A stretch of DNA of 64,000 nt from Abyssibius alkaniclasticus (GTDB taxonomy: Bacteria; Pseudomonadota; Alphaproteobacteria; Rhodobacterales; Rhodobacteraceae). How positions within the stretch are numbered: the first letter of the stretch is position 1; every line of letters starts with the position of its first letter. Below are positions 24,760-59,426 of this stretch, in pieces. The notes beneath the pieces were generated by a model. The model searched no databases and had not been told where the DNA came from. It saw nothing but the letters and a program-made list of their open reading frames with translations. The position numbers and the translations under genes were made by a program. The stretch is taken from assembly GCF_020447305.1 (NCBI RefSeq), contig NZ_CP095732.1:1272501-1336500 (forward strand). The letters are read 5' to 3'.

Positions 24760-25577
24760 CGCCCTTTGTCACAGCCGATGGGCTGCGGCTGGATTATACC
24801 GATCAGGGCCAAGGCCCCGCCGTGCTGTGCCTGCCCGGCCTGACCCGCGATTTGCGCGATTTCGACGAACTTGCCGCCGCGCTTTCCGGCGTGCGCCTGC
24901 TGCGCCTGACCCCGCGCGGGCGGCACGGGTCTGACTGGGCGCAAGATGCTTCAAGTTACAATATAGCCGCGGAATCGGCGGATTCACTGGCATTTCTCGA
25001 CTTTCTGGGGGTGGAGAAGGCGGTTGTCATCGGCACTTCGCGTGGCGGGTTGCAGGCGATGGTGATGGCTGCAACCGCGCCCGAGCGGCTGGCTGGCGTC
25101 GTGCTGAACGATATCGGCCCCGAACTGTCTGCCGATGGTCTGGGGCGGATCATGGATTACCTCGGCATCGCCCCGCGCGCCCAAAGCCTGCCCGAGCTTG
25201 TAGCCGCGCTGCGCGCCACGATGGGCGCAGGCTTCCCCGGCCTTTCGGCGGAAAAGTGGGAGACACTGGCCCGGCGCTGGTTTGATGTGCGCGATGATGG
25301 CATCGGGCTGACCTATGATCCCAAAATCCGCGACGCGGTGATTGAGCAAAGCGCAACACCCGCGCCCGACCTCTGGCCATTCTTCGACCTTTTGCCAGCG
25401 CCGCTGGCGGTCATCCGCGGCGCAAATTCCGATTTGCTGAGCGTCGAGACCGTTGCCAGAATGAAGGCCCGCCGCCCGGCGCTGATCAGCGCCGAGGTTC
25501 CAAACCGTGGCCATGTGCCGTTTCTGGATGAGCCGCAGGCGCTGGCCGCAATTCACGCAGTGTTGGAGCAGGTATGA
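24756..25577 (+). CDS. Alpha/beta hydrolase
   Basis: Alpha/beta-hydrolase fold protein of 273 residues. The nucleophile elbow is GTSRGG (about residue 93), the oxyanion region is GLTRDLRDF, and the catalytic His lies in NRGHVPFLDEP near the end. The GTG start at 24756 overlaps the stop of the dehalogenase by 4 nt, and the gene ends overlapping the next ATG, so all three are translated together. Substrate unknown; members include esterases, lactonases and haloalkane dehalogenases. Confidence 0.85.
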   Translation: MTPFVTADGLRLDYTDQGQGPAVLCLPGLTRDLRDFDELAAALSGVRLLRLTPRGRHGSDWAQDASSYNIAAESADSLAFLDFLGVEKAVVIGTSRGGLQAMVMAATAPERLAGVVLNDIGPELSADGLGRIMDYLGIAPRAQSLPELVAALRATMGAGFPGLSAEKWETLARRWFDVRDDGIGLTYDPKIRDAVIEQSATPAPDLWPFFDLLPAPLAVIRGANSDLLSVETVARMKARRPALISAEVPNRGHVPFLDEPQALAAIHAVLEQV

Positions 25578-26545
25578 GCAGGATCGAGATGATACACGCC
25601 GCGCGGGCGCGCAGTGCGAACCATGTGCGGCAAACGCCGGTTCTGTCCTCTCCGTTTCTGGACGAGATCGCCGGGCGCCGGGTTTTGGTGAAGGCTGAAT
25701 GCCTGCAGCATACCGGCAGCTTCAAGTTTCGCGGCGGCTATTCGGCGCTGTCGGGGCTGAGCGATGCGCAGCGCGCGGGCGGGGTTATCGCCTATTCCAG
25801 CGGCAACCATGCGCAGGGCGTGGCGCTGGCCGCAAGGCTGCACGGGGTGGCGGCGGTGATTATCATGCCGTCTGACGCACCCAGGCTGAAGATTGAGAAC
25901 ACCCGCGCCCTTGGGGCCGAGGTGGTGTTATATGACCGGTTTGGCGAGGATCGCGACGCGATTGGCCAGTCGTTGGCCACCGCGCGCGGGCTGACGCTGA
26001 TCCGCCCCTATGACGAGCCTTTGGTTGTTGCCGGTCAGGGCACGCTGGGGCTGGAGTTGGGGCCGCAACTGGCCGAAGCGGGCATGACATCGGGCGATGT
26101 TCTGGTGTGCTGTGGTGGCGGCGGGCTGACCTCGGGCGTGGCGCTGGCCTTGGCCGAAGTCGCGCCGGGGTTGCGCGTGCGCCCGGTCGAACCTGTGGGG
26201 TTTGACGATGTGCGCCGTTCGCTGATGTCCGGCCGCATCGAGGGCAATGCACCGGAGGCGCGCTCGATCTGCGATGCGATCGTCACGCCAGGGCCGGGCA
26301 AGCTGACATTCCCGATCATGCAGGAACATTGCGGACCGGGGCTGGCGGTGCCGGATGAAGACGCGCTGCGCGCCGTGGCGCTGGCCTTTCAACGCCTGAA
26401 AATCGTGGCCGAACCGGGCGGGGCCGTGGCGCTGGCCGCCGCGCTGTTTCAGGCCGATCAGCTTGAGGGCGAAGCCGTGGCCGTGGTGGTGACGGGGGGC
26501 AACGTGGATGGTGATGTGTTTGCGCAAGCTCTGGCGCGCCTGTAG
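25574..26545 (+). CDS. Threonine/serine dehydratase family protein (PLP fold type II)
   Basis: PLP-dependent enzyme of 323 residues. The cofactor Lys is in GSFKFRGGY, the Asn block is SSGNHAQGVA, and the Gly-rich phosphate loop is CGGGGLTSG. Length and lack of an ACT domain fit catabolic threonine dehydratase or the serine racemase/threo-hydroxyaspartate dehydratase group rather than biosynthetic IlvA. It would deaminate a beta-hydroxy amino acid to a 2-oxo acid. It ends a three-gene operon and is followed by a structured repeat. Confidence 0.86.
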   Translation: MSRIEMIHAARARSANHVRQTPVLSSPFLDEIAGRRVLVKAECLQHTGSFKFRGGYSALSGLSDAQRAGGVIAYSSGNHAQGVALAARLHGVAAVIIMPSDAPRLKIENTRALGAEVVLYDRFGEDRDAIGQSLATARGLTLIRPYDEPLVVAGQGTLGLELGPQLAEAGMTSGDVLVCCGGGGLTSGVALALAEVAPGLRVRPVEPVGFDDVRRSLMSGRIEGNAPEARSICDAIVTPGPGKLTFPIMQEHCGPGLAVPDEDALRAVALAFQRLKIVAEPGGAVALAAALFQADQLEGEAVAVVVTGGNVDGDVFAQALARL

Positions 26546-26570
26546 CAGCACAGATACTCCCGCGCCGCAC

Positions 26571-26652
26571 CGCCGATCAAAGATCGGCGATGGGGCTTGG
26601 CGGTGGCAGCGCGGCACTGGTGCGCAATGTGCAATGTCGCACCCGCGCTGCC
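26571..26652 (+). repeat. Structured intergenic repeat, copy A
   Basis: It starts with a perfect hairpin CGCCGATC-AAA-GATCGGCG (26571-26589), then GGGGCTTGGC. A second, longer stem follows: 26605-26614 pairs perfectly with 26643-26652, with an inner 5-bp stem 26620-26624/26638-26642 and a loop containing a GCAATGT tandem. It lies just after the dehydratase gene. Two further copies occur at 26733-26815 (inverted) and 58275-58324. Confidence 0.7.
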
Positions 26653-26732
26653 CTGCACCGTGGCACGTGACGCCGGCTAGCATGGCCTGAACGCCACCCT
26701 GAAGGAGTTGCAACCAGGGGCAACATCGGCAA

Positions 26733-26815
26733 GCGGCGCGGGCGTGAGCGGCAATCTGGTGCTGCCCTGGCCGCGCCGCCACCGCCAAGCCCCCGGGCTG
26801 ATCTTTGATCAGCCC
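26733..26815 (-). repeat. Structured intergenic repeat, copy C (inverted)
   Basis: On the minus strand it has the same order as copy A: hairpin GGGCTGATC-AAA-GATCAGCCC (26795-26815), then GGGGCTTGGC, then a core whose ends (26771-26783 and 26733-26742) pair through GCGGCGCGG-type arms. It follows the end of the leftward dehydrogenase gene. A and C share a 23-nt block (one mismatch) outside the first hairpin, so this is a repeat family and not only a pair of terminators. Confidence 0.68.
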
Positions 26816-26833
26816 AAGGGGGCGCGGCAGGGC

Positions 26834-29320
26834 CTAGCCATCAATCCGGATTGTGGCATTCGCCGGGTCATAGGGGCTGTCTTCGACCACTTCGGCATCC
26901 CAAAGCTGGTTCAGCATCTTGACCTTCAGCTTCTGGCCGACCGTGGCCAGATCGGGGCGCACATAGCCCATGCCGATGGATTTGCCGAAATGCACGGAGT
27001 AACCGCCCGAGGTGAGGCGGCCGATCTTGGTATTTCCATCAAACAGCGCCTCGCGGCCCCAGGGGTCGCAATCGGCGGGGCCGTCGATGAGCAGGGTGAC
27101 GCATTTGGCGCGGATGCCGGTGGCCTCCATCGCCGCTTTGCCCTGGAAGTCTTTGGACAGGTCGACAAAGCGGGGCAGGTCGGCTTCCAGCGGGGTGGCG
27201 TCGCGGCCAAGCTCGGTGCCAAAGGCGCGGTAGGATTTTTCTTGGCGCAGCCAGTTTTGCGCGCGCGCGCCAACCAGCTTCATGCCGAATTCCGCCCCGG
27301 CCTTCTCAAGCTGGTCGAACAGGTAGTTCTGCATTTCGATCGGGTGGTGAAGCTCCCAGCCCAGCTCGCCGGTATAGGCCACACGGATGGCGTTGACGGG
27401 GCACATGCCAAGCTCGATTTGCCGGGCAGACAGCCAGGGGAAGCGCTTGTTGGACAGCGCGGTTTCTGGGTCGGCATCGCGGATGAGTTTTTTCAGCACG
27501 TCGCGCGATTTCGGCCCCGCAATGGCGAAAACGCCCCATTGTGTGGTGACATTCTGCACCTCGATGCGGCCAAACGCGGCCTCTTTGTCGGCCACGCATT
27601 TGCGCAGATAATCGGCGTCATAGGCTGTCCACGCGCCAGCAGAGACGAGATAATACTCGTCATCCTTAAGCCGCACGATGGTGTATTCGGTGCGGGTCGT
27701 GCCGGTTGGTGTCAGCGCATAGGTGAGGTTGATGCGGCCCACTTTCGGTAGCTTGTTGGTGGTGAACCAATCAAGGAAAGCCGTGGCACCGGGGCCTTTG
27801 ACGATATGTTTGGTAAACGCCGTGGCGTCGATCAACCCGACGCCGTTGCGGATGGCTTTGGCTTCCTCAACCGCATATTGCCACCAGCCGCCACGGCGGA
27901 AGCTGCGGCTATCATGATCATTGAAGCCCATGGGGGCGTAATAGTTCGGGCGTTCCCAGCCGTTTACCTGACCGAACTGCGCGCCGCGCGCGGCTTGCCG
28001 GTCATAGGCGGGCGAGGTGCGGAGCGGGCGGGCGGCGGGGCGTTCCTCATCGGGGTGGTGGAGGATGTAGACATGGTCATAGCACTCCTCGTTCTTGCGC
28101 ATGGCATACTCAGTCGTCATCCAATCGCCAAAACGCTTGGGGTCGAGCGACGCCATGTCGATTTCAGCCTCGCCATTCACCATCATCTGCGCAAGGTAAT
28201 AGCCGGTGCCGCCAGCCGCCGTGATGCCAAAGCTAAAGCCCTCGGCCAGCCACATATTGCGCAGGCCGGGCGCGGGGCCGACCAGCGGGTTGCCATCGGG
28301 GGTGTAGCAGATCGGGCCGTTGAAATCATCCTTCAAGCCGCTGTTCTCGCATGAGGGGATGCGGTGGATCATCGCCATATACTGGCTCTCAATGCGCTCC
28401 AGATCGAGCGGGAACAGGTCGGCGCGGAAACTGTCGGGCACGCCATATTCAAACCGGGCGGGGGCGTTCTTCTCGTAAACGCCCAAAATCCAGCCGCCGC
28501 GTTCCTCGCGCACATAGGATTGCGCATCGGCGTCGCGGATGACGGGGTGTTCGGGGTTGGTCTTGCGCCATTCCACCAGCGCGGGGTCGGACTCCATAAC
28601 GATGAACTGGTGTTCAACCGGAATGGCGGGGATCTTGATGCCAAGCAATTTGGCCGTGCGCTGGGCGTGGTTGCCGGTGGCTGTCACCACATGTTCGGCG
28701 CGGATTTCAAACCTGTCCTCTCCGGCCACCAGATTGCCGCCGCGCTCCACCATTTTGGTGCCGCGCACGATCCATTCGGACCCCGTCCATTCATAGCTGT
28801 CGACCTGCAGCTTGCGGTAAATCTCGGCCCCCAACTGGCGGGCGCCCTTGGCCATCGCCTGGGTGACATCGGCAGGGTTAATATAGCCGTCTTCGGTGTG
28901 GTAAAGCGCGCCTTTAAGGTCATCCGTGCGGATCAGCGGCCAGCGGGCCTTGATGTCATCCGGCGTGAGGAATTCATACTTGATGCCCACCGAATCGGCG
29001 GTAGAGGCATAGAGCATGTATTCGTCCATACGCTCTTGCGTTTGGGCCATGCGCAGGTTGCCCACCACCGAAAAGCCTGCATTCAACCCGGTTTCAGCCT
29101 CCAGCGTTTTGTAGAAATCAACCGAATACTGGTGGATATGGCTGGTGGCGTAACCCATGTTGAACAGCGGCAAAAGGCCGGCGGCGTGCCAGGTGGAACC
29201 GGATGTCAGCTCGTCACGCTCGATCAGAACGCATTCCCAGCCGGCCTTGGCCAGATGATAGGCAATGCCCGCCCCTACGGCCCCGCCGCCAACAACCAAT
29301 GCTTTGACCTGGGTTTTCAT
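26834..29320 (-). CDS. Dimethylglycine/sarcosine dehydrogenase-like FAD protein with GCV_T domain
   Basis: Large oxidoreductase of 828 residues. The N-terminal half is a DAO-type FAD domain with VVGGGAVGAGIAYHLAKAG at the start and GSTWHAAGL, whose His position matches the residue that binds FAD covalently in dimethylglycine dehydrogenase. The C-terminal half (from about 430) is an aminomethyltransferase GCV_T domain that would pass the formaldehyde unit to tetrahydrofolate. Roles include demethylation of dimethylglycine, sarcosine or similar N-methyl compounds. GGAG precedes the ATG at 29320; the longer frame to 29425 is not used. It is divergent from an amino acid transporter. Confidence 0.85.
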   Translation of the reverse strand: MKTQVKALVVGGGAVGAGIAYHLAKAGWECVLIERDELTSGSTWHAAGLLPLFNMGYATSHIHQYSVDFYKTLEAETGLNAGFSVVGNLRMAQTQERMDEYMLYASTADSVGIKYEFLTPDDIKARWPLIRTDDLKGALYHTEDGYINPADVTQAMAKGARQLGAEIYRKLQVDSYEWTGSEWIVRGTKMVERGGNLVAGEDRFEIRAEHVVTATGNHAQRTAKLLGIKIPAIPVEHQFIVMESDPALVEWRKTNPEHPVIRDADAQSYVREERGGWILGVYEKNAPARFEYGVPDSFRADLFPLDLERIESQYMAMIHRIPSCENSGLKDDFNGPICYTPDGNPLVGPAPGLRNMWLAEGFSFGITAAGGTGYYLAQMMVNGEAEIDMASLDPKRFGDWMTTEYAMRKNEECYDHVYILHHPDEERPAARPLRTSPAYDRQAARGAQFGQVNGWERPNYYAPMGFNDHDSRSFRRGGWWQYAVEEAKAIRNGVGLIDATAFTKHIVKGPGATAFLDWFTTNKLPKVGRINLTYALTPTGTTRTEYTIVRLKDDEYYLVSAGAWTAYDADYLRKCVADKEAAFGRIEVQNVTTQWGVFAIAGPKSRDVLKKLIRDADPETALSNKRFPWLSARQIELGMCPVNAIRVAYTGELGWELHHPIEMQNYLFDQLEKAGAEFGMKLVGARAQNWLRQEKSYRAFGTELGRDATPLEADLPRFVDLSKDFQGKAAMEATGIRAKCVTLLIDGPADCDPWGREALFDGNTKIGRLTSGGYSVHFGKSIGMGYVRPDLATVGQKLKVKMLNQLWDAEVVEDSPYDPANATIRIDG

Positions 29321-29448
29321 CGCTCGCTCCAATTCCTGATGATTTGGTAAAGCTATCATGCAGAACGGCGCGCGCAACTTGCGAGCGCCCGACCAGATGG
29401 CGGCTGCTTCCGACATGCGCGCCAATCAAAGCCGCATTTTGAGATGCA

Positions 29449-39345: not shown

Positions 39346-40512
39346 ATGTCCCGTCAGAACTATATTTTCACCTCGGAATCCGTATCCGAGGGGCACCCCG
39401 ATAAGGTGTGCGACCGTGTGTCCGATGCCATTCTGGATGCGTTTCTGGCCGAAGAGCCGAATGCGCGTGTGGCTTGTGAAACCTTTGCCACCACCAATAA
39501 TGTCGTTGTCGGCGGCGAGGTCGGGCTGTCGAGCAGGGACAGGTTGGAAACCTATATGGGCAGGATTGACGGGATCGTGCGCGACTGCGTGCGCGATATC
39601 GGCTATGAGCAGGACAAGTTCCACTGGAACACGCTGACAGTGCAGAACTTGCTGCACGCCCAATCGGCGCATATCGCCCAAGGGGTCGACCGTGATGGCG
39701 CGGGCGATCAGGGCATCATGTTTGGCTTTGCGGTTGATGAAACGCCCGAACTGATGCCCGCCCCGATCCTATATTCGCACGCGATTTTGCGGCGTCTGGC
39801 CGAGGCGCGCAAATCGGGGGCCGAGCCGACTCTGGGGCCGGATGCCAAAAGCCAGTTGAGCCTTCGTTATGAGGGCGGCAGGCCGGTCGAGGTGACATCG
39901 CTGGTGCTGTCGACCCAGCACGCGCATGAGGCGCAGACAAGCGATGATATCCGCGCGATTGTCGAGCCTTACATCCGCGATGTGCTGCCGGATGGCTGGC
40001 TGACCGAGGCGACCGAATGGTGGGTGAACCCGACGGGTAAATTCGTGATCGGCGGGCCGGATGGCGATGCCGGGCTGACCGGGCGCAAGATTATTGTCGA
40101 TACTTACGGCGGTGCCGCCCCGCATGGCGGCGGTGCGTTTTCCGGCAAAGACCCGACCAAGGTTGACCGTTCGGCGGCTTATGCGGCGCGCTATCTGGCG
40201 AAAAACGTGGTGGCGGCGGGCATGGCGACGCGCTGCACGATCCAGCTGAGCTATGCCATCGGTGTGGCCAAGCCGCTGTCGATTTACGCCGATACGCATG
40301 GCACGGGGCAGGTGGATGAGGCGCAGATCGAACGCGCCGTGGCCCGCGCGATGGACCTGACGCCGCGCGGCATCCGCACGCATTTGCAGCTTGACCGGCC
40401 GATTTATGCACGCACCGCCGCCTATGGCCATTTTGGCCGCGCGCCCGAGGCCGACGGCGGATTCAGCTGGGAGAAAACCGATCTGGCCGCCGCGCTGAAA
40501 GCCGCGATCTAG
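39346..40512 (+). CDS. metK: S-adenosylmethionine synthetase
   Basis: Makes SAM from methionine and ATP. It has 388 residues, with the N-terminal [14 protein letters not shown] block, [10 protein letters not shown] (ATP site) and [16 protein letters not shown] (P-loop-like). The frame is open from 39319, but GGAG at 39337-39340 and the family start (MSRQNY) place the ATG at 39346. Translation is probably controlled by the SAM/SAH riboswitch that includes this ribosome binding site. A series of GC-rich hairpins follows the gene. Confidence 0.96.
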
Positions 40513-58274: not shown

Positions 58275-58324
58275 GGTGGCGGCGCGGTGCTATTGCACAA
58301 GTTGAAACGGCGCGCCCGCGCCGC
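58275..58324 (+). repeat. Structured intergenic repeat, copy B
   Basis: GCGGCGCGG (58279-58287) pairs with CCGCGCCGC (58316-58324). An inner GTGC-TATT-GCAC hairpin (58287-58298) overlaps the end of the left arm by one base. Over 56 nt it aligns without gaps to copy A (26602-26657) with about 41 identities. It lacks the GATCAAAGATC hairpin of copies A and C. It lies in the gap between the ychF start and the end of the BNR gene. Confidence 0.6.
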
Positions 58325-58346
58325 GTTGCAGCGTTTCGCCTGTCGC

Positions 58347-59426
58347 CTAGCTGAAGGCCAGCGTGGCGATGGGCGGCAGGGTGCTGGAAAGCTGTTGCCA
58401 GCTATCGCCCATATTCTCGCTCAGCCACAGGTTGCCGGTGGTCGAGCCCGTGGCCAGCCTGTTGCCGGTTTCATCGACGATCAGCGCATGGCGATAGACA
58501 AGGTCGTAGCTGGGGGCGCTGGGCAGGCCATTGTCCAGCACTTCAAAGCTTTGCCCGCCATCGCGGGTGCGGGTGATGACGAATTTACCATCGACCGGCA
58601 CGCGGCATTCATCTTTCACCGCCGGTGCAAACCATGCGGTATCCGGCTCATGCGGATGGGCGGCGACGGCAAAGCCGAAGTTCGATGGCGGCACGTTGTG
58701 CAACTCGGTGAAGTTCATGCCGCCATCATCGGAGCGATAGACGCCGCAATGGTGCTGGCACCACACACGGTCGGGCGCATTGGTGCAGGCGGCAATGAAA
58801 TGCGGATCTTGCGAGGTTGGGTCGCTCGCCTGTTCGGGGGGCAGGAAGGCGGCGTTGAACCCGTGGCCCGCCTGCGCCCAGCTTTGCCCGCAATCAAAAC
58901 TGTGCCAGCAGCCACCGCAAGACACGCCCAGCGTTATGTGCTGGCTGTCGCGCGCATCGGTGATGATGGAATGGATGCCGGGATGGTCGTAGCCGCCGCC
59001 GAACCATTTGGCGCGTTCGGGGCGTGCCCACAGGCTTTCGACCAGTTCCCAGCTTTCACCACGGTTGGCGGATTTGAACAAGCCGCCGGGCAGGGTGCCG
59101 GCCCAGATCAGCCCCGGCTGGTCGGCCCCGCCGGGGCTAAGCACCCAGATCATGTCCAGCGCGGGCGCGTCGGGCGCATCGGAAGCCGGGTAGGCGGGGG
59201 TGGGAAATTCCTGCCAGCTTTTGCCATTGTCCTGACTGCGGTGGAATTTGCAGCCGAAATGCCCATGCTGTAGCGCCACATATTGCGCCCCGTCGCGCGG
59301 GTCGACCATGAAGGCCGTGACCGGCCCGGCCAGAAAGGCGGGCGGACCGGCAAGCTGCCAGCCATCTGCGCCGCGCGTGTAGTGAAACAGCCCTTTGCGG
59401 GTGCCAACATGTAAACGGTCGCTCAT
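58347..59426 (-). CDS. BNR/sialidase-like beta-propeller protein
   Basis: A 359-residue protein without a signal peptide. It has several Asp-box (BNR) motifs of the S-x-D-x-G-x-x-W type: SQDNGKSWQEF, SANRGESWELV, SFDCGQSWAQA, RSDDGGMNFTE, TRDGGQSFEVL and SENMGDSWQQL. These mark a six-bladed propeller like that of sialidases and photosystem assembly factors, but catalytic sialidase residues are not evident. AGGAGG precedes the ATG at 59426. It starts 1 nt after a MoaD-like gene, suggesting a joint function. Confidence 0.82.
   Translation of the reverse strand: MSDRLHVGTRKGLFHYTRGADGWQLAGPPAFLAGPVTAFMVDPRDGAQYVALQHGHFGCKFHRSQDNGKSWQEFPTPAYPASDAPDAPALDMIWVLSPGGADQPGLIWAGTLPGGLFKSANRGESWELVESLWARPERAKWFGGGYDHPGIHSIITDARDSQHITLGVSCGGCWHSFDCGQSWAQAGHGFNAAFLPPEQASDPTSQDPHFIAACTNAPDRVWCQHHCGVYRSDDGGMNFTELHNVPPSNFGFAVAAHPHEPDTAWFAPAVKDECRVPVDGKFVITRTRDGGQSFEVLDNGLPSAPSYDLVYRHALIVDETGNRLATGSTTGNLWLSENMGDSWQQLSSTLPPIATLAFS

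Follow-up and report, generated by a model that had tools for sequence, protein, structure and literature searches.

Gene-end repeats of the REP/BIME kind in two related genera, probably seeded by a fragment of dnaE2

The short palindromic repeats that most resemble those described here are the GTAG-tagged REP/BIME elements and the CGTC-tagged REPs of alphaproteobacteria. In other bacteria a GT(A/G)G head beside a palindrome is, in the account given in PMC2817692, a hallmark of RAYT-associated repeats. The 2013 survey (PMC3733652) does not settle whether REPs still form de novo. A literature search, conducted outside most subscription papers, found no REP family derived from dnaE2. For the origin of REP-like repeats, the family described here offers a specific, testable candidate source, the gene for a mutagenic polymerase. 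Its consensus, translated from the antisense strand, comes close to a stretch of an error-prone DNA polymerase, a hint at how such repeats can arise.

Three copies, A, C and B, lie in the window, the 64-kb stretch of Abyssibius alkaniclasticus DNA that was analysed (Table 1). With moderate confidence we place them in a REP/BIME-like family whose short palindromes lie at gene 3' ends and for which a dnaE2 fragment is the most likely source. The family is marked by its many copies, their placement, facing pairs, conserved arms and restriction to one lineage. The preliminary description of this DNA had read A and C as inverted copies between convergent genes, and that is indeed their arrangement; the inverted repeat that they form (26572-26615 / 26770-26813; 44 nt, 86% complementary) ranks first among those of the window. 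Its gapless alignment of A (from 26602) with B (from 58275) also holds, with 41 identities over 56 nt, where the next-best unrelated place in the window reaches 31 (window mean 15.2, sd 3.4). The compensating change claimed for the outer stem is correct as well: one P3 pair, A-U in A, is replaced by G-C in B, and across 27 copies the same pair is G-C in 23, A-U in 3 and G-U in 1. The GATCAAAGATC hairpin, in contrast, proves to lie outside the conserved unit. It occurs just twice in the whole genome, at A and C, so the conserved part is not that stem, which varies between copies with compensation.

Copy B has no upstream P1/P2 module. It is flanked by two minus-strand genes and is oriented opposite to the gene whose stop codon it adjoins. 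Copies A and C fold better than shuffled sequences (z = -2.28 and -4.15), whereas B alone does not (z = +1.07). In the window the repeats match no Rfam family; the one element there above its gathering score is a SAM/SAH riboswitch (SAM-SAH, RF01727; 39295-39342, 48.2 bits), which precedes the gene at 39418.

Table 1. Copies A, C and B of the repeat, their parts and the adjoining genes (positions within the window)
Feature	Position	Strand	Basis or remark
Gene upstream of copy A	25574..26545	+	threo-3-hydroxyaspartate/threonine ammonia-lyase-like, score below family cut-off
Copy A, upstream hairpin module	26557..26606	+	fold; covariation across 10 copies
Copy A, P1 5' arm CTCCCGC	26557-26563	+	
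Copy A, variable stem P2 GCCGATCAAAGATCGGC	26572-26588	+	
Copy A, P1 3' arm GCGGTGG	26600-26606	+	
Copy A, GTGG head	26603..26606	+	
Copy A, core dyad P3, GCAGCGCG-N30-CGCGCTGC	26606..26651	+	27-copy alignment
Copy A, tail (CCTGCACCGTGGCACG...)	26652..26675	+	agrees with the family's conserved ~24-nt tail
Copy C, tail, diverged	26709..26732	-	27-copy alignment
Copy C, core dyad P3, GCGGCGCG-N31-CGCGCCGC	26733..26779	-	
Copy C, upstream hairpin module	26779..26830	-	
Copy C, P1 3' arm/head GCGGTGG	26779-26785	-	
Copy C, P2 GGGCTGATCAAAGATCAGCCC	26795-26815	-	
Copy C, P1 5' arm CTGCCGC	26824-26830	-	
Gene upstream of copy C	26834..29425	-	FAD oxidoreductase, GcvT-like C-terminus
Copy B, GTGG head (58276-58279) and core dyad P3 (58279-58324)	58276..58324	+	core-dyad model R2: 67.5 bits, E 2e-12
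Copy B, tail (GTTGCAGCGTTTCGCC...)	58325..58348	+	runs into stop codon of minus-strand gene 58347-59426

The core of the repeat is a 46-bp dyad, GC(G/A)GCGCG-N30/31-CGCGC(C/T)GC, followed by a conserved tail of about 24 nt. The whole unit spans about 76 nt and comprises, in order, the GTGG head that most copies carry, an 8-bp arm, a loop of 30-32 nt, the complementary arm and the 24-nt tail. Its length follows from a second carrier genome, G229, in which the conserved stretch starts about 5 nt ahead of the dyad and ends 24 nt beyond it; both arms are exact in 60 of the 63 elements found there with the model. A GT(A/G)G head is present in 17/27 copies of the source genome (G000) and 35/63 of G229; the remainder carry other heads. 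In many copies of the source genome a variable, covarying hairpin separates the stop codon from the dyad. The order is then stop codon, P1 5' arm CTGCCGC, variable P2, GCTTG with the P1 3' arm GCGGTGG, P3 and a CCTGCACCGTTGCGC-like tail. P3 also occurs without P1 and P2, in several copies 0-12 nt past the stop codon.

The covariation that the preliminary description expected among further copies is found in one part of the structure and not in the other. In the upstream hairpin module, 12 pairs over the whole structure are changed on both sides among 10 copies, compared with 6.7 in shuffles, and 86.5% of cells are paired, compared with at most 59% in slid controls. In the core dyad P3 the arms are nearly invariant among the 27 copies, and covariation in the loop does not rise above shuffles. 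Strand preference in folding is weak: in only 11 of 16 copies does the hairpin module fold better as sense than as antisense strand. At one place (L035/L041, G000:C1:1140841-1140974), two facing copies are built on a single core dyad, while their upstream hairpins are separate.

Further copies do exist: covariance-model searches find about 30 in the 3.2-Mb source genome, the sole genome of its genus in our set. BLAST with copy A finds 26 places there at E<=1. A first covariance model, R1, made from 10 good copies, finds 23 matches at E<=0.01 and 32 at E<=1, copy B included. Thirty R1 loci, minus L041 (whose dyad is common with L035), L045 (broken dyad) and L055 (intragenic), make up the 27-copy alignment. 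With the core-dyad model R2, in which palindromic places may count twice, 37 matches at E<=1 are found in the source genome and 134 in G229; the other ten genomes searched give 2-24 where about one is expected, so E-values from R2 overstate significance in GC-rich genomes.

The spread of the family is narrow. When the dyad pattern was compared with a reversed-pattern control in 295 family genomes, clear enrichment outside the source genome (27/27 vs 2/3) was seen only in G229 (35/39 vs 1/1); most others lie near the control and a few moderately above it (for example G286, 23/21 vs 10/9). R1 gave one weak match, in G028, among 60 relatives, and the plasmid and viral collections searched gave none to the repeat. 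The P1...head pattern turned up at two places in contigs of other genomes, a Planctomycete and a Bradyrhizobium, which we take as chance. A DnaE1 tree with four usable family members groups the source genome and G229 as sisters (support 0.97); the row for G028, whose very long branch sets it apart, was probably read in the wrong frame.

Forty regions were compared more closely, 38 of them from G229 and picked from its best R2 matches. Of the 71 matches in the forty regions, 63 G229 elements were used for context and pair counts; left out were L154 and L155, which belong to other genomes, and the matches that scored lowest (<=25.5 bits). The G229 regions contain 61 exact dyads, 5 of which failed a tail test, and the 49 with an inner spacing of 31 or 32 were used for a G229 profile.

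By the predictions of a codon-usage gene finder, all 27 aligned copies of the source genome are intergenic, 20 with convergent neighbours, 7 with tandem and none with divergent ones. Convergent placement is thus far more frequent than among the gene junctions of the window (8/61; Fisher p 4e-8), and 23/27 copies follow a co-oriented upstream gene. Six facing pairs, A/C included, are present by coordinates, and a tail-to-tail arrangement of units between convergent genes is common. Of the 63 G229 elements, 29 have convergent neighbours, 29 tandem and 5 divergent ones, and 23 facing pairs were counted against one back-to-back pair in the 38 regions; as these regions were picked from the best R2 matches, the context and pair counts are not those of a random sample. 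Between 1.33 and 1.79 Mb of the source chromosome (G000:C1) the unpaired copies are all on the plus strand, mostly with positive GC skew, and elsewhere their orientation is mixed. One copy (L052 / L214, G000:C1:1497088-1497202) lies shortly upstream of the replicative dnaE1, directly after a terminator-like hairpin with a T-run.

Placement at gene ends might also be explained if the copies were ordinary intrinsic terminators, alike through their GC-rich composition. Indeed some copies, such as L030 and L052, have a canonical terminator just upstream, and a T5 run lies within 90 nt upstream of 15/63 G229 elements. Where a T-run is present, however, it comes before the dyad; a scan of 26500-26900 called no terminator at A or C; and arms, loop and tail are conserved beyond what any hairpin would need. 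We consider this explanation very unlikely.

The preliminary description also proposed looking for a REP-associated transposase, and none was found. PF01797 has no match in the source genome, and its five matches in G229, at four places, are degenerate, being fragments or carrying an internal stop. No repeat is present in the loci around these IS200-like remnants (L157-L161). A MITE or IS-end family mobilised by a transposase in trans would account for dispersed non-autonomous copies, and the remnants in G229 would fit it, but no repeat adjoins them, no parent element was seen nearby, and a longer unit with terminal inverted repeats was not noticed. Such a family is very unlikely. Of the earlier reading, a dispersed, folding family of the REP sort that is more than a terminator, the dispersal (about 30 copies), the inverted pairs and the gene-end placement stand; the transposase is missing, and the 30-nt loop is not that of a canonical 20-40 bp REP.

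An unforeseen feature of the family, for which the preliminary description supplied the family reading and not the link, is its likeness to dnaE2. In sequence, the unit resembles the antisense strand of about 25 dnaE2 codons. At E<=1e-6, R2 matched 14 of 394 family genomes: the source genome, G229, ten genomes with a single match each, antisense to the same stretch of dnaE2 (error-prone polymerase), and two, G028 and G306, with intergenic matches after stop codons. The single G306 match fits the G229 profile poorly (-22.6). One of the ten dnaE2 genes is named by NCBIfam NF004225, from a partial protein with a score below the cut-off. In four more genomes, not picked by R2, the best match is again this dnaE2 stretch; the best R2 matches of G286, G018, G155 and G003 are not in dnaE2. 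Thus in 14 other genera the single matches have one common place, antisense to dnaE2/imuC.

It could be argued that the likeness is a product of chance in GC-rich DNA and that the REP-like family has some other origin. GC-rich coding DNA yields many exact dyads, among them one in a second conserved coding stretch whose arms are identical, and the E-values of R2 are over-optimistic, as noted above. Against this, all coding matches at E<=1e-6 in the 394 genomes fall in one gene, dnaE2, and the likeness survives both masking of the arms and comparison with arm-matched controls. With the arms masked, the G229 profile scores the dnaE2 places at -12 to 25 and true copies of the source genome at -28 to 25, while 33 arm-matched controls have a mean of -36 (sd 15) and a maximum of -5.5. 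The G229 consensus agrees with the dnaE2 consensus at 43/61 non-arm bases, a figure favoured by the dnaE2 rows having mostly been found by R2, and with single dnaE2 rows at 31-39/61. The background over 505,114 positions has a mean of 16.2 (sd 3.6), the best place outside dnaE2 reaches 35, and the highest value among 20 arm-matched control placements is 26/61. Thirteen of the 14 dnaE2 places entered this base comparison, because L090 lacks exact arms; 12 of the 13 have a spacing of 31 and one was read at 36, maybe through a registration slip.

The two consensuses also agree in translation. Read antisense, the G229 consensus gives PQAPTLQRGAGAILPQAQCLTRRHR, which matches the DnaE2 consensus PQAPTAQGGAGAWLPQAQRLTRRFP at 19/25 residues; the consensus of the source genome matches the DnaE2 peptide at only 12/25. 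Taken together, these comparisons make chance very unlikely. The top-scoring control belongs to the other conserved coding stretch (GCGGCGCGTCAGACCGA...; L216, L217, L219, L222 and L231), which has the same arms and spacing in several genera, by chance or otherwise.

No DnaE2 was found in G229, and the DnaE2 of the source genome lacks the repeat-like segment; the proposed donor is therefore missing from both carriers. For the same reason we reject the idea that the repeats are antisense RNAs controlling dnaE2 mRNA, which the antisense position of the unit in other genera might suggest and which seems exceedingly unlikely.

The exchange may also have run the other way. In the common ancestor of the 14 genera, an old REP-like repeat of other origin may have entered dnaE2 and become coding. 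REPs inside DnaE2 genes are reported in PMC3733652, and both carrier genomes hold the repeats and not the dnaE2 segment. A further case comes from family f13, where the DnaE2 of G048 (L198) measures 79 aa from anchor to anchor. The extra DNA is an inverted pair starting CGTCACCCCGGA that folds at -91.9 kcal/mol and, judged by the description in PMC3733652, is a CGTC-type REP dimer. This in-frame palindrome pair adds about 45 residues at the loop whose counterpart in other genera resembles the repeat. The loop does, then, take up repeats, and insertion into dnaE2 is a real alternative. With an unrelated REP in the same DnaE2 loop of another family, exchange between repeats and dnaE2 can be tested directly in either direction.

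Several features nevertheless argue against insertion as the source of the likeness. The anchor-to-anchor stretch of DnaE2 is 36-38 aa in the ten genera measured and 28-36 aa elsewhere, bar the one repeat-bearing case, so that no gain of some 25 codons is seen. In DnaE2 of other alphaproteobacterial families a helix can be aligned with the segment, and the codons beneath the 5' arm (L.RRFP) can be aligned with the outgroup G037 (GEFADQVARLARRFP). These observations favour dnaE2 as the source. The GTGG head, common in the repeats, is missing at the dnaE2 places. Entry of a repeat into dnaE2 is therefore unlikely, though a serious contender.

We give somewhat better than an even chance to the opposite course, in which a 75-bp piece of the gene, antisense to a helix and loop of DnaE2, became a REP-like mobile palindrome and spread to gene ends in two related genera, the donor being lost in one. 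Most likely, a dnaE2 fragment that was palindromic by chance would have gained a GTGG head. The headed fragment could then have been copied as a non-autonomous unit by an enzyme acting in trans, through machinery no longer visible. Because the copies sit at gene ends and face each other, a 3'-end or insulating role may be proposed: where transcribed, the hairpins might serve as 3'-end structures by which transcription coming from facing genes is stopped or insulated and mRNA ends are protected. The sequence, with no U-tract at A or C and a weak strand preference in folding, gives no proof of such a role, which is the less certain part of the proposal.

The family is thus a real, lineage-limited one, REP/BIME-like and not a classical REP. 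With Rho-independent terminators it shares hairpins past stop codons, but A and C have no U-tract, and loop and tail are conserved. A RAYT-associated REP has a RAYT (PF01797) flanked by repeats, whereas here there is none in the source genome and none beside the G229 remnants. The CGTC-tagged REPs of alphaproteobacteria, as described in PMC3733652, are alike in having no dedicated transposase known, in their gene-end sites and in their occurrence inside dnaE2; the present family has neither the CGTC tag nor the CCA tail, and its stem is unrelated. Compared with REP/BIME elements as PMC3733652 and PMC2817692 present them, units of 20-40 bp with a short loop, the repeat is larger, with a dyad of 46-47 bp, a loop of 30-32 nt, a 24-nt tail and a unit of about 76 nt; it differs also in having no associated RAYT and in its likeness to dnaE2. 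In copy number, intergenic 3'-end sites, convergent or unidirectional gaps and facing dimers the two are alike, and the GT(A/G)G head of REP/BIME elements is found on about 60% of the copies here.
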